NCBI GenBank assembly: GCA_002917775.1
Contig: KZ627161.1
Coordinates: 284,428-348,427 of the forward strand
Length of the DNA: 64,000 nucleotides
Direction of reading: 5' to 3'
Origin: Glaciozyma antarctica PI12
Lineage: Eukaryota; Basidiomycota; Microbotryomycetes; Kriegeriales; Camptobasidiaceae
Under the pieces are notes generated by a model. That model was not told the DNA's origin. It saw nothing but the letters and a program-made list of their open reading frames with translations, and searched no databases. The position numbers were made by a program, and so were the translations under genes. Below are positions 21,905 through 29,514 of the stretch, one piece after another (position 1 is the first letter of the stretch; each line of letters starts with the position of its first letter).

Positions 21905-22585
21905 ATGTCAGACGTACGTACTCGCGCGTAACAGCAAGTCAGCACGCTCAGCTAACCCCCTGCACCTCTCACAGCGAGACCAAGAATGGGGTTCGTCCCT
22001 ACCCCACCTACCCAACTCCTCCTCCCGCTGACCCTCTCCCGCAGAGATCCGCTACTCCAACAGTCGTTCGCGACCCTACTTCTACTCAATCACCGCTAAG
22101 GAATCACGCTGGGAGCCCCCGTCCTGCTTCACTCCCGAAGAGCTCCTCGCCCTCCCAGGAGCCGAGCACCTCTCTGCCCGGCCTAAGCAAGTCCGCGCGT
22201 CCCACCTCCTCATCAAGCATGCGGGAAGTAGGAAGCCTGCGAGCTGGAAGGAGAAGGTCATCACGAGGAGCAAGGAGGAGGCGATTGCGATCCTCAAGGC
22301 GCACCAGAAGGCGTTGAACGAGGCGGACGACTTGGGGGAGGAGTTTGGAAGGCTGGCCACGACGGAGAGCGATTGCTCGAGTGCCAAGTACGGCGGTGAC
22401 CTCGGTGCGTGACTTTCTCGAGCTGGAGGGGACGGGCAGGAGCTGACGAGGAGCTCCTAGGGACCTTCGGGCCGAAGCAGATGCAGAAGCCTTTCGAGGA
22501 CGCGACGTTCGCGACGGAGATTGGCAAGATGAGCGAGATCGTCGACACCGACTCGGGTGTGCACCTTATTCTCAGGACGGGATAA
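21905..22585 (+). CDS. ESS1: Pin1/Ess1 peptidyl-prolyl cis-trans isomerase
   Basis: Phospho-Ser/Thr-Pro-specific prolyl isomerase acting on the RNA polymerase II CTD. Start ATG 21905; a 9-nt first coding exon (MSD) is followed by an intron, then RDQEW, another intron, and [20 protein letters not shown], completing the WW domain (W...YFY...W). The parvulin domain reads [79 protein letters not shown] and [18 protein letters not shown], stop 22583-22585. The active-site Cys (SDCSSA) and the His residues of SHLL and GVHLI are intact; basic residues in the [10 protein letters not shown] loop suit phosphate binding. Four introns. Divergent from the Med25-like gene with a 128-bp spacer. Confidence 0.96.
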
Positions 22586-22768: not shown

Positions 22769-25700
22769 TCAGATCTCTACGAGCGGAGCAGCGCGCACTC
22801 TCGCCAACAGTGCCGCCATCGGTCTGCACGCGCGACGTCAGCGTACTCTCCTTGACTAGGAAAGGAAATCACGCACAGGAACTTCTCCTCGCACAGGCTC
22901 GAGAAGTAGAAAGAGTGCTCTGCATCATGAGGGCCGACGAGGTTGTGTGCCAGCTCGCTATGTCTCTTCGTCAGCGCACCATCCGAGAAGGAGTAGAAAC
23001 GTAGAAACGTACTGTGCCAACGTATGGAACACGCTGATGAGCGGTTCCGCCAGCTCCCCCCTCACGACCGCCGCATCGTGCCAAGCGAGGTAGTAACGCA
23101 GGTTTAGATAAAGCGACCCGTTCCGGTTGAACGCGATCAACGGGCCGGAGAGGTCGTGGAAGATGTGGAGAGAGCGAGGGTCGACGCCGAAGACTTCTCC
23201 GACGGGACGGACAACGAGAGTGATGAATCGAAGGAGGGCGGCGTGGTGCGATCGTACGAAGTCGGGCCTGTCGCGAACGGAGAACAGAGTTAGCGGCGAG
23301 AGGGAGGAAAATGGAGGAAACGCACGGGTCGAGGATCTCGCGAGCGACGAAGAACCTGAGTCCACCAAGCTCGGCAGCGAAGACGAGGTCTGCAGCGGCG
23401 GTCGAATCGCAGTACGAAGACTCCGATTCTTTGACCTGCGTCTTCTCGACGGCATTCGAAATCGAGTTGGATGATTCGGGTCGAGAAGCCTGCACATCAC
23501 GAGACCGTCAACCCAGGCTGGCGTCCGAGCGAGCGAGCGAGCGACGTACCTGGATCGCGCGAAGCACGTTCGAGCGGATTGTGTCAGTCGACGTGGGCGT
23601 TTCCGCTGCCGTCGAAGACGATCTCGTTCCCGTCCGAGGAGGAATAGCTGCAGCGAGGTTCGGCGTAGGAAGGCCCTGCGAGCTCCCGTCGCCCATCGAG
23701 CTCGCTCCCCGGCTCTCAGGCCGGAGCCTGCGCTTGAGGTTCCCAAAGAGTCCGCTGTCGGAGCCGGGCATCCGCTGCTCGCCCATGATCATTGGGACTG
23801 GAGGAGGGGGAGGGCGCTTGGGGTAGTTGCTGGAAAGGAGCTGGTTCGCGGCGTTTTCGACGTGCGATCCGGATTGAGCTTGGAGGAGAGAGCGGAGGTA
23901 CGAAGGTTCGGCGTCGGGAAAGAGGGAGCCGAGCTGCTTCTCGTGGCTGGCGAGCTTCTCTGGAGACTGGAGTGGGGTTAGCGTTGAGCCAGTGCGAGAA
24001 AGAGACGACGAACAAGGGCGTTCGCGCAGCGGAGCTGGGCTTGCAATCGTTCTTCGCGTAGACGCTGCTCCGCTATTTCCCGTTCGACTTGACGCGCATT
24101 AAGAATCCTGTCGACCTGTGATCGAAGCGCTCGTCAGTCGAAGGCAAAGACTCTGAGTGCAGGAAAGGTTACGTTGAAGCCTCGACGCTTGAGGTTCTTC
24201 AGGGTCGTGCTGAGGATAGTCATGAAGAGCAGTGCGTCGTTCGGCCGCTGCCTCGAGAGCAGAAGGCGGCAGAGAGCGATTGCGACCTCGTAGTAGTCTA
24301 GCTCGAGGTCGGAACTGACGAAGAGGAGAACGTCGCCTTTGGGGTCGAGCTTGGCGAATGCAGAAGCCGCCTGCGTGTCCTTCTTGAGCGTGCCAGCCGT
24401 CGCAAGCGTGCGAATGAGCTCGATCGACCTGCGTTACAAAGTCAGATGTGCGAGCAGAAAATCCTACCGATGAGGACGCACCGAACTTCGGAGACGAGAA
24501 GATGGGACTGAATCCACTCAGCGTCGTGCTTGAGCTCTCCCTTCCCATACTGCTGTCTTCGTTCCGCAAGAAAGAGGAAGGTCCGCTCGGTCACCGCTGC
24601 AGCTACCTAGTCAGCCCCGGTTCGACGACGACAACGCCGCGAAGACGCACCTCGCCGAAGCTCTGCAGCTCGCTTTGATCCCATGTCCGGCTCGCCAATG
24701 CTTCGATAGTGCTCCTTGACAAGTTGCGAGATCCTCGAGGCTCCCAGCGCCTCTGCAAACGCCTCGATCGAGTCCTCCTGAGGACAAGCGAGGATGTCGC
24801 TCTGGAAGACGCGAAAAGCTGCAAGTGGAATGCGACGTTAGGAAGCTTCGCAGGAAGGGTCGGAACGGGAAAGCACTTTGTGGGTCGTCGTTAACGGCAA
24901 GCTCGTCGGCCCGAGCGAGCTTGTAGATGAGGCTGCCTGCTTCTTCATCGTCGTCGTCATCATCGTCGCGAGCTGCCTTCTTCGGCGCCGAGGTCGAGAT
25001 TCGCATCGAACCGAGGAAGAACGCCGACGTCTTCATCTGGCTTCGCAGCGTCGAAGATAGGGCACCGTAGTTGATTGCCAGCATGCGCAGTACTGAGGAG
25101 AGTGTCGTCAGCGTGCGGCCTCTGCGCAAGAACGCTGGCGTACCTGCGAGATAGCGATCCGCAGAGCCGCAAAGATCGAGAAAGCGTCCTGGAGAGCGAA
25201 CGCACGTCGTCAGTCCTGTTCGGAGATGGCTGCATGCCGACTTACCTGGATCAGCAACGACAGAGACGGTGATCTCAGTCGGTGAAGGGGTATCCTTGAC
25301 TCCGATGGCGACGAGGAACGGTTTCGCGGCGGGACCAAAGTCAGGAAGAGTCGTAAATAACGCCTTGAGTCCAGCGGGAAGCGCTGTATCTGCGCCGAAG
25401 AAGCACGACGACGGTGAGCTGAGCTCGATGGCGCCTCCAGCTCGCTCAACGGGGATGATGTTTGCTGCTCGAAGCGTAGCGACGTCGGACGATGATAAGC
25501 CTGCGAAGAGATGCCAGCTTAGTTGAGCTCGTCGGGCGAAAATTGACGCACGAGAGACCTGGCTCGACATGTAGCCAAAGATGTCTCGAGCCTTGCGAAC
25601 ACTCGCCGGAGGTGCCTTGACGAGGGCGACCACGAGCTCGGAAGGCGGAGGATCTTGAGCGATCTTGAGCCGTCCTGCGTCGTTCTGCAGGCGGTTCGCC

Positions 25701-28700
25701 AGAACAGCGAAGCCCAGGAGAGAGGCAGCGACGTTCGAGACGACCTCAGCCGGCTTTGCGAAAATCAACTTGTCGTTCCGAACCGCCGGAACGAATGGGA
25801 GAGCGTGCTTGGTAGGAGAGTCTGCGGTGGAGCTCAGCTTGCGTATTCCTCAAACAAGGTGCGTGTACGCACAGGTCTTGTCAAAGCCGGCGGTAGAGTA
25901 CTCGTCGAGAAAGTAGCGGAGCGCAGCTTCTTGGCGAGAAGGGTTGTCGGTCGAGGCGGCAATTTGAAGGACTTGGTCGACTGCAGGCGTGCGCTGAAGG
26001 CCAAGCTCGAAGAGGAATTTGGCTGTGTAGGACGTTAGCTGCAGCCGAACAGCGGAGAGAGGCTACTGACCTTCGTCGGAGGTTGTTCGCCATTTGTGCA
26101 CTCCCGTTGACCAATCGACGACAGGCAGACCGAGCAATCTCAAGGGGTCCGTTGGCTACAGAAGCGAGAGTTAGTGTGAGGCCAGGTTTGGGAGTGAAGG
26201 AAGAAGACCGACCTCGAAAAGTTGCGCAGCAGTGAACCGAACGACCTTGCGAGAGCTCGGAACCGTTCCCGGAGCAGCAGTGTCGACGACGGCAGCTCCT
26301 CCCTCCTTCGGTAGCCACGCAGTCTTCCTCAGACGGTCGACCTCGCTGGAAGACAGGGTATCCCGAACCGAAACGAGGTACTTGACGAGGTCGACGTGCG
26401 ACCAGTCGCCTTGACCGAGCAACCGCGTGAAGACAAGCTGGAGCTGCAGGAGGAGGGCTGTAAGTCGCTGAGAGTCAACCGAAAAAGCGGACGAACCTCG
26501 ACGTGCCGCCGAACGCCCAACGCCGTGAGAAGCTTCTCGAGGTTGCCCTTGACGGGAAGCCCGCTGGGAAGAGTGACGATGGGCAGGTCGTCAAAGAGAA
26601 GGACGTTGGCGAAGTAGCTTTCGGTAGGTTTGCGAGGACCTTGGCGGGTTTGGGAGGCGAGAAGAGTGGAGAGGCGAGAAGAGTGGAGAGCTCGGCATGT
26701 CGAGGAAGCGAGAGAGTCGGCCAGCCGCGCGCGAGGGTGTTGAGGACCTGCGCAGCTCAATTAGTGGTATCCTCGTGCGAAGGCGGCCGAGACGCACCTT
26801 CTCCGCAAAGTGAGGCGAGACGAGGAGATTCGTATCGGCCTTGGCTCCCGCTCCAGCCATCGGCAACGAGAGGAGGTAGCGAACCCACTCGAGAAGCGAC
26901 AGCTCCTCAAACTGGAAGACGCGATTCAGATCCGTCGCAGCGAAGGATCGAGTGAGGGCGAACGGGAGGGTGTGCTCGGGGAGAGGGAGGTCGACGGAGA
27001 TGAGCTTGGGATTGAGAAAGGTCTTGTAGCCGGCCAGAGGGTGGATCCGAGTGTCGGGATCGGTGATCGAGATCATGGCGGCCTCCTTGAGCTTGCTGAG
27101 GAGAGCTAAATCGTACGACCGGTTCGCAGCAAGCGAAATCCACCACTTGAAGCAATGCTCCGCCTCCTCGATCGTGAGAGCGTGCGTAGCGAGGTCGGCC
27201 AGCACGTCCTCCAGCGAAATGTCTCGCACCAGGTTTCGATCTCGCAGCGCCGCGAGGAAGCGAGGTGCGCCGCTCGAGACGGCCTCGGGGACGGTGGGGA
27301 TCTCTTTGAGGAAGCTGGCGAGTTGCGGATTGGGAAGGCGAACTTGCGAGGCGGGAAGAGGGCCGAGCTGGGAGATGAGAGTGATGGCGGAGTTGCGGTT
27401 CGTGGCGAAGAAGCTCGTTTCGGTTTCCGACCCGACGACGGGGGAGGGAGTCGATAGGGAGAAGGTGAAGAACCTGGAGAGGTGATCTCAGCGGTGAACT
27501 GCGAGGGAGTAGAAGGTGGGACGCACTTCATGAGGTGGAGAGCTCTTCCTTGAAGCTTCGCCTTGCCCTCGGCACTCAGTCCCTTGGACACGAACAGCCT
27601 CGCGATATCTGCGACCGAATTCAGCGCGAGATTTCGGCCTTGACGCACAGAAGAGCTCACTCGCCAGCTCCTCCTCGTAAACCGTGCGCGCGAGAATCCC
27701 TCCAGCCCACAGCAGCTCGCGATTCCAGTCGGCGACGTGTCTCGCCTGGAAGTCGAGGGATTCGCGCTCGACCGTCGAGACGAACCTCGCCGCCACTGAT
27801 GCGGCGCATCCCGTTGTCTGAAACGTCCTGCGAGATCGCACTATCAGTGATGTCGCCTGCGAACACAGCGGGAAGTGCTCACGGGAAGCCAATAAACACT
27901 CGCCCATTCGTCTCCAAGTCCGAGAGCAAGCCTACAAACACCTTGCGCGCATCTTCGTCTCCCTCGACGCCCTTGCCCTTCGCATGCGAGCTCCCAGAAT
28001 CCCTGCTCGCGTCAAACTCGTCCTTCCCCGTCCAAATAAGGCTATACGCCGTCGATTTCGGGAGAGCCTTCTTGGTCGCGCGCAGCATCTCGGCGCTAAA
28101 GTACGTCGAGGGAGTGACTCGAAGCTCGGCGGAGACGGTGCGAAGGAAGAGGGTCGAAAGGAGGAGGTCGAGAGGGTCTTTCGTTGACGGCGGTGGAAAA
28201 ATGGCGGTGGGTGTGCTCGCGACAGTGGGACGGGGTTTAGAGGAGAAGGCGGCGAGCATCTTAGTTGCGAAGGAGGAGGTCGCGGTCGCAGCTGCTGCCA
28301 GGCTGACGGCGGGCTTGGGCTTGGCGGCATACGAGGAGAGCCAGCGCGAGACCTCGGCGCGGAGTTGAAGTGGGACTTCGGAGATGGACGTGAGGTGAAG
28401 GATCTTGAGGGGAGAAGTGGAAGCGAGGTTCGGGTGCGGAGTGATGAGTCGGGAGGGGGCGAGGGTCTTTGAGATGCGAAAGAGGAGCTACGTGAGGCGG
28501 AAGTCAGCGGCTGTTACTTCGCTTAAAGGGGAGGTAATTACGTGTCCGTCAAAGTGCACTGTGAGGGCGAGAATCAATAAGGACATGCGCGATCGAAACT
28601 GAGGGACGAACTCGAGATGGTGCGAATGCTGCTCGTGAATGCTAGGCACGTCGTCAAGAACCGCGCAAACTGGAGGACAGTATCAGCTCCGCTTGGCAAT

Positions 28701-29514
28701 AACGAAGCTGGGACGCACGTCGGTCGGCTCTGGCATCGGCGCCTGCTCGCGAAGGTCAACCAGAATCGTCGTCCAAGGCTTTCCGTCTTTCGTAACGTTC
28801 TTAACTCCATTCTCGTCGCTTGCCGTCTTGACGCTGTGATCGTGCGCTGTCAGCACCTCGCCAAATCGTGAGCTGGGGGCGACACTGACTAGAGTTGATC
28901 GCCTCCTCCCTTCCAGTAGAACTGCATCATCCGAGATCCGGAGAGTACGACCGGCTCCTCGCAAAGGGAGAAGAGCGAGTACCATCCTACTCCGAATGCA
29001 CCTATCTTGCCCTCGTCGGGATTGCCTTCAGCAATCTCAAAGCGTGCTCGAGGTTAGCTTGGCCCCTCTCATCCCCCTCCTGAGACGCACCTTCTTGAGC
29101 CGGTTCCAATCCTCGTCCCTGAAAACCATCCCGTCGTTCCGGACCATGATGCTCGTTACTGCTTGAGTCTTGAGGTTCGGGAGACGGTCCTTGGGGTGCA
29201 AGAGCGGCGACTCGGTGGGACCGGCGTCGGGGGTGGTGCGGAAGTGGATCTCGACCGTCGAGGCGGAGGCGCTGTGCAATGATAGATCAGCTGTGCTTTC
29301 CAAAGCTTCTCTTGCAGCGCGTACTCGTCGGCGTTCTGCAGGAGCTCGCGAAAGACTGGGAGAACGTCAGCGAGCGTTCGACGACCTCCACATCGTGGCA
29401 CTCACCAGTCGATTCGCCCGAGTAGCGTGCTAGGATCTTCTCCACTAGAGCTCGCTGGTTGACGCTCACTGCCTCGTCTACGCCTGAGTGGAGGAGCGCC
29501 TTGAAGTCGGCCAT
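22769..29514 (-). CDS. Giant fungal GHKL-ATPase (sacsin/Hsp90-like, DUF3684) protein with C-terminal HExxH motif
   Basis: Very large protein, about 1,700 residues by estimate, spread over many short exons. It starts MADFKALLHSGVDEAVSVNQ (ATG 29512-29514). The N-terminal domain is a Bergerat-fold ATPase: ELLQNADDA (N-box, made by splicing out a GTACGC intron), MVRNDGMVFRDEDWNRLKKI (G1 box) and GAFGVGWYSLFSLCEEP (G2 box), close to sacsin and Hsp90. The order matches the fungal DUF3684 family as remembered. The long middle has no motif I recognise. Near the C terminus, FVRSHHAALLRFITLVVRPV and SLYLNLRYYLAWHD precede HTLAHELAHNLVGPHDAEH, an HExxH metallopeptidase-like site assembled across one intron. 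Ends RAAPLVEI and stop (22769-22771). Cellular role unknown; a chaperone-like function is inferred only from the ATPase fold. Confidence 0.85.

Follow-up and report, generated by a model that had tools for sequence, protein, structure and literature searches.

A fungal DUF3684 protein with a sacsin-type ATPase and a putative C-terminal zinc-peptidase domain in Glaciozyma antarctica

A 64,000-nucleotide stretch of Glaciozyma antarctica PI12 (contig KZ627161.1, positions 284,428 to 348,427; here called the window; G+C content 59%) carries on its minus strand a gene of the DUF3684 family. From its sequence, we consider it somewhat probable that this gene encodes a fungal sacsin-type ATPase, followed by the DUF3684 region and by a small domain at the C terminus that is a zinc peptidase of the minimal gluzincin group (Wss1/WLM, SprT, selecase). 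The domain order, the ATPase boxes and the residues H-E-H-H-H of the C-terminal motif are conserved in two distant fungal proteins, namely the window protein and one orthologue. A protein of this design would bind zinc, cut other proteins and remodel them in an ATP-coupled manner, and it might choose its substrates through ubiquitin and act in protein quality control.

The ATPase and DUF3684 regions and their conservation

The gene starts with an ATG at 29514 and its stop codon ends at 22769. A hand-made splice model (22769..29514, minus strand) contains 28 exons and 27 introns (GT-AG, 47-60 nt), and its ends coincide exactly with the gene limits given in a first-pass annotation, which had been made from the letters of the window alone. 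Together with the genome size and the G+C content, the shortness of the introns would suit a basidiomycete yeast. In exon 12 (26747-26497), a 17-bp tandem duplication was found at 26657..26690 on the same strand. The open frame before the duplication differs from that after it, and therefore the assembly as given encodes no single continuous protein. The orthologue has an open frame across the corresponding region, and the duplication may be an assembly error, a strain variant or a real lesion. The two open parts, of 729 and 954 codons, were analysed separately.

The N terminus contains the boxes FRELLQNADDA, RNDGMVF and KIGAFGVGWYS in this order. These include the three Bergerat boxes (ELLQNADDA, RNDGMVF, GAFGVGWYS) that had been read earlier, and ELLQNADDA itself is assembled by splicing of an intron (29324-29272). 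Residues 24-144, encoded by exons 1-4 (28925..29445, minus strand), matched the Pfam model SACS, a sacsin-type GHKL (Bergerat) ATPase, at 8e-18. The scores of the window protein and the orthologue, 65.6 bits and 60.8 bits (2.4e-16), were both above the cut-off of 32.8, and HATPase_c_3 gave 0.01 and 1.8e-4 with the respective N termini. Over residues 24-200 the two proteins are 46% identical (78 of 169 aligned residues) and, variable positions aside, share the Glu and Asn of the N box, N.G..F and KIGAFGVG. When a profile of the two N termini was compared with the PDB, sacsin structures ranked first (E 2.2e-11) and Hsp90-type proteins next, among the best 60 of 157 matches. The earlier proposal of a GHKL, Hsp90-like ATPase is borne out by these matches, which support a sacsin-type GHKL ATPase with predicted ATP hydrolysis.

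The DUF3684 region lies within exons 6-21 (24567..28645, minus strand). Both open parts matched PF12449, which we take to correspond to IPR022155, at 9e-148 (494.4 bits, model positions 1-536) and 8.9e-142 (474.6 bits, positions 614-1097, of 1098), far above the curated cut-off of 27 bits. Both the ATPase boxes and the zincin-like domain at the C terminus lie outside the match. A profile search of the genome (20.0 Mb in 18 contigs) gave no further DUF3684 match. A SACS search of the same genome gave no match even at the DUF3684 gene, probably because the exons are short, and is therefore uninformative on paralogues. No paper naming DUF3684 was found in the open-licence PMC literature, in agreement with the remark of the first-pass annotation that it knew of no described function. 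That literature likewise yielded no protein with a GHKL ATPase together with a metalloprotease, and the sacsin, zincin and fungal papers listed from it had no title or opening abstract lines describing one.

The orthologue was the single match to a DNA pattern for NPDE.KIG.FG.G in a genome contig collection. Its contig, NYXK01000053.1 (295 kb), is filed under a metagenome-assembled genome of Deltaproteobacteria, a bacterial record into which fungal DNA seems to have come as a contaminant. It carries a spliced DUF3684 gene with the same N-terminal boxes, a DUF3684 match with an E-value reported as 0, and the C-terminal domain, in whose last stretch one residue is unread (base N). A second DNA pattern, HELAHNL...H...H, had no match in this collection; the orthologue escaped it because it reads HELAHNI.

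Other collections were also searched. Among viral contigs, no orthologue was retrieved with the C-terminal protein query or with three DNA patterns, and the N-terminal query gave six loci. Two of these were examined (L006:4908-10064 and L009:3884-8155) and rejected as orthologues, since each codes for a large bacterial protein that has a sacsin-like ATPase at its N terminus and ends in a helicase-like part; the neighbours of L006 resemble what we take to be a restriction-modification system. In tblastn searches, the C-terminal domain matched two phage records (E 3 and 5) and 11 plasmid records, none of the latter better than E 0.8, and the C-terminal domain and N terminus of the orthologue had no plasmid matches.

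The C-terminal domain and its candidate zinc site

The putative zincin domain (YCDST ... IAFNRNGSLYLNLRYY ... HELAHN ...) was delimited by an alignment with the orthologue, named A1, and is encoded by exons 25-28 (22769..23420, minus strand; the start is approximate). The window protein ends with YCDST...IAFNRNGSLYLNLRYYLAWHD...VFHTLAHELAHNLVGPHDAEHSFYFSSLCEEKFLPMAALLARVRAAPLVEI. An intron (23012-22958) interrupts the first motif His within its codon, so that the two leading bases of this codon (23013..23014) end exon 26, and the remainder of the motif, HELAHNLVGPHDAEHSFY, lies in exon 27 (22906..22957); an additional intron (22876-22824) follows. The spliced motif HTLAHELAHNLVGPHDAEH on the minus strand is as the first-pass annotation had read it.

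The domains of the window protein and the orthologue are 38% identical. The orthologue keeps YCDST, SG..IAFN..G....N.R.Y...H and AHELAHN.V..H.AEH.FY, and the aligned identity is 14/21 around the motif as compared with 37/112 in the rest of the domain (Fisher p 0.004). The spacing HExxHx5H is found in both. The H, E and H of HExxH and both further His are invariant. The first-pass annotation had named a lack of such conservation in orthologues as a first way to refute a zinc site, and this check, run on one orthologue, did not refute it. Of the ten His in the window domain, six are conserved in total, including all four of the motif. Two conserved His stand outside the motif, at A1 positions 66 and 95, and could belong to the active site or to a second metal site.

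At the motif, the window protein resembles WLM (PF08325), with matches of 4.8e-5 and 4.7e-5. These cover the motif only, about 25 residues, and reach 24 bits against a cut-off of 26. Reprolysin_5 was matched at 0.033, and none of four shuffles of the whole domain matched any Pfam family. With an earlier form of the domain sequence, the best PDB matches were Wss1p at E 0.022 and 0.06, followed by a WLM protein of fission yeast at 0.28 and adamalysin II at 0.59 or more. No second copy of the domain was found in the genome search. Full membership of WLM was rejected, as the score is below the cut-off and the orthologue gave no match. In the WLM pattern, GPH is followed by an aromatic residue, and both proteins have His at that place. 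Metzincins (M12, adamalysin) share the pattern HExxHxxGxxH; they were also rejected, since Val, not Gly, stands three residues before the third His in both sequences.

Other results give no support to membership of a known zincin family. The orthologue lacks the Gly-Pro that precedes the third His and forms part of the likeness to WLM (GPH in the window protein, KEH in the orthologue). The C-terminal domain of the orthologue matched no zincin model in Pfam. Outside the motif there is hardly any profile similarity to SprT and YgjP, as was seen with profiles built from 10 SprT proteins (SprT-like, PF10263) and 12 YgjP proteins (YgjP-like, PF01863). When the sequence upstream of the motif was shuffled, 239/500 (window) and 128/500 (orthologue) shuffles scored as well as the real sequence against YgjP, and 6/500 and 450/500 against SprT; for whole-sequence shuffles, the corresponding numbers were 6/500 and 0/500 for YgjP, and 0/500 and 7/500 for SprT. 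Almost the whole signal therefore comes from the motif, with the window protein against SprT as a possible exception. In hhalign, YgjP aligned over 15 columns with a probability of 6% and SprT over 28 columns with 69%, both in the motif helix. A two-sequence C-terminal profile gave nothing significant against the PDB; the best match was an RNA polymerase chain (E 0.57), and snake venom metalloproteases appeared at E 0.94 and 1.2.

The failure of the orthologue to match a zincin model, and a similarity almost confined to the motif, would be expected if the motif were not a zinc site at all and the C terminus were a fungal-specific fold that resembles WLM by chance. We regard this as quite unlikely. 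From the composition of the protein, the number of occurrences expected per protein is 0.0007 for HExxHx5H and 0.000014 for HExxHx5Hx3H, and yet the motif is kept in the distant orthologue. In addition, exon 26, from which the motif is excluded, points weakly to selecase, a minigluzincin. This exon alone was modelled with low confidence in the secondary-structure order H-E-E-E-H-H, and selecase was its top match in the PDB at E 1.8. In a second structure comparison, RseP and GGTaseIII stood alongside selecase. No WLM or SprT structures were among the matches listed, which excludes nothing. Exon 17 of the same gene, of the same length, served as a weak control, as its model (pLDDT 43) was poorer than that of exon 26; its three Foldseek matches, all at E 10, were two chains of the 26S proteasome and a Csm chain, and selecase was not among them. 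The possible zinc protease of the first-pass annotation thus stands as regards the kept metal-site residues and the likeness to WLM/Wss1 at the motif, and the evidence for a zincin fold is mixed.

A zinc-binding zincin fold could also have a structural or substrate-binding role and not cut, in which case the whole protein would be only a sacsin-like chaperone. The third and fourth conserved His of the motif could complete a four-ligand site with no free place for water, and inactive zincin-like domains are described on NTPase proteins of bacterial conflict systems (PMC8195603). These parallels favour a non-cutting domain slightly, and our confidence in a peptidase was set slightly lower for that reason. 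However, HExxH retains its Glu as well as its His, and a purely structural site would not need this Glu. We therefore hold a non-cutting domain to be unlikely, and a small zinc peptidase is preferred.

The linker and a possible mechanism

The linker between the DUF3684 region and the C-terminal domain of the window protein has at its start a charged stretch of helical appearance, together with a CUE-like, putatively ubiquitin-binding segment (KQLGSLFPDAEPSYLRSLLQ...NQLLSS) in exon 24 (23832..23939, minus strand). CUE (PF02845) was matched at 3.1e-4 with 20.8 bits by the segment alone and with 16.8 bits by a longer piece, both below the cut-off of 21.1; none of four shuffled segments matched. 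The single PDB match was the Toll-interacting protein chain 1wgl (E 0.18). The linker of the orthologue gave no CUE match in Pfam and the segment is absent from the alignment; therefore, CUE would characterise some lineages at most. The orthologue linker carries NPPTYDE, a PPxY-like motif that is presumably a WW-domain ligand, so that the partners recruited by the linker may vary among fungi.

If the C-terminal domain is a peptidase, a substrate would be bound, opened through ATP-driven motion of the sacsin-like part, held in part via the CUE segment in the lineage of the window, and handed to the C-terminal zinc site, which would cut it. More tentatively, and with clearly less confidence than in the domain assignment itself, DUF3684 proteins may form a class of ATP-driven, single-chain chaperone-proteases with a GHKL/sacsin engine instead of an AAA+ ring. 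In such a class, the sacsin-like body would remodel substrates, marked by ubiquitin in some lineages, and pass them on to a zinc site at the C terminus, the HExxH...H...H form of which matches no peptidase family tested. To our knowledge, ATP-driven proteases all use AAA+ domains. A GHKL engine and a protease site in one chain would be a different solution to the task of the AAA+ proteases, and one fungal chain would unite the roles of a zinc peptidase, an Hsp90-like engine and a segment that binds ubiquitin.

The same domains could instead form a protease of DNA-protein crosslinks like Wss1 or SPRTN with its own unfolding engine, and not a general quality-control factor. The WLM-like motif and the CUE-like segment would suit such a role, and SPRTN is reported to act on polyubiquitinated crosslinks (PMC12277127). 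Nevertheless, WLM matches occur on three other contigs of the genome, which also contains one SprT match, and Pfam detected no DNA-binding domain in the linker or the C terminus. A crosslink protease is consequently the least probable of the alternatives considered here, and the DUF3684 protein is probably additional to the usual crosslink proteases.

Downstream of the DUF3684 gene, and convergent with it, a gene at about 22032-22585 on the plus strand ends close by, which we take to encode a Pin1/Ess1-like parvulin.

Comparison with known systems

Sacsin shares the same type of GHKL ATPase (Pfam SACS; best solved structures 5v44-5v47), followed by a very long middle region, whereas the window protein has one ATPase unit and a zincin-like tail. 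In sacsin, Hsp90-like modules are combined with a J domain and HEPN, and patients with spastic ataxia of Charlevoix-Saguenay carry mutations in the human gene (PMC3710099). ATP hydrolysis is described as important for sacsin (PMC8745260), whose molecular function has been called not clear (PMC9437860). One fungal transcript has a Psilocybe 'Sacsin' as its best match, in an account that gives no domains for it (PMC11503967). The animal sacsin body with ubiquitin-like, J and HEPN domains, and the CUE-like and zincin-like parts described here, would fit one core with exchangeable tails. Fungal genetics would also gain a way into the sacsin ATPase family.

Hsp90 shares the Bergerat boxes, including the N-box Glu, with the window protein; however, sacsin ranks higher, and no Hsp90 middle or C-terminal domain was detected by Pfam in the scanned parts. 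Phage proteins of the rIIA type, which are counter-defence proteins, join a GHKL ATPase domain to a different C-terminal domain (PMC7824862), a likeness in domain layout. Each half of the proposed ATPase-plus-zincin protein therefore has a parallel, in the rIIA GHKL ATPases and in the inactive zincin-like domains on NTPases.

For the C-terminal half, SprT/Spartan and YgjP-like proteins have HExxH with a nearby extra His in the sequences inspected. The minigluzincins selecase and jannalysin were the best or nearly the best PDB matches of the exon-26 model, in which a helix and strands come before the presumed active-site helix. WLM has been compared with minigluzincins and SprT, and Wss1 is reported to bind the Cdc48 ATPase (PMC4559962). 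The window protein and the Wss1p chain have HELxHNLxGPHD in common; it differs from WLM/Wss1 in its score below the curated cut-off, in His in place of the Phe of Wss1p, in a Gly-Pro that the orthologue does not keep, and in its fusion to an ATPase.
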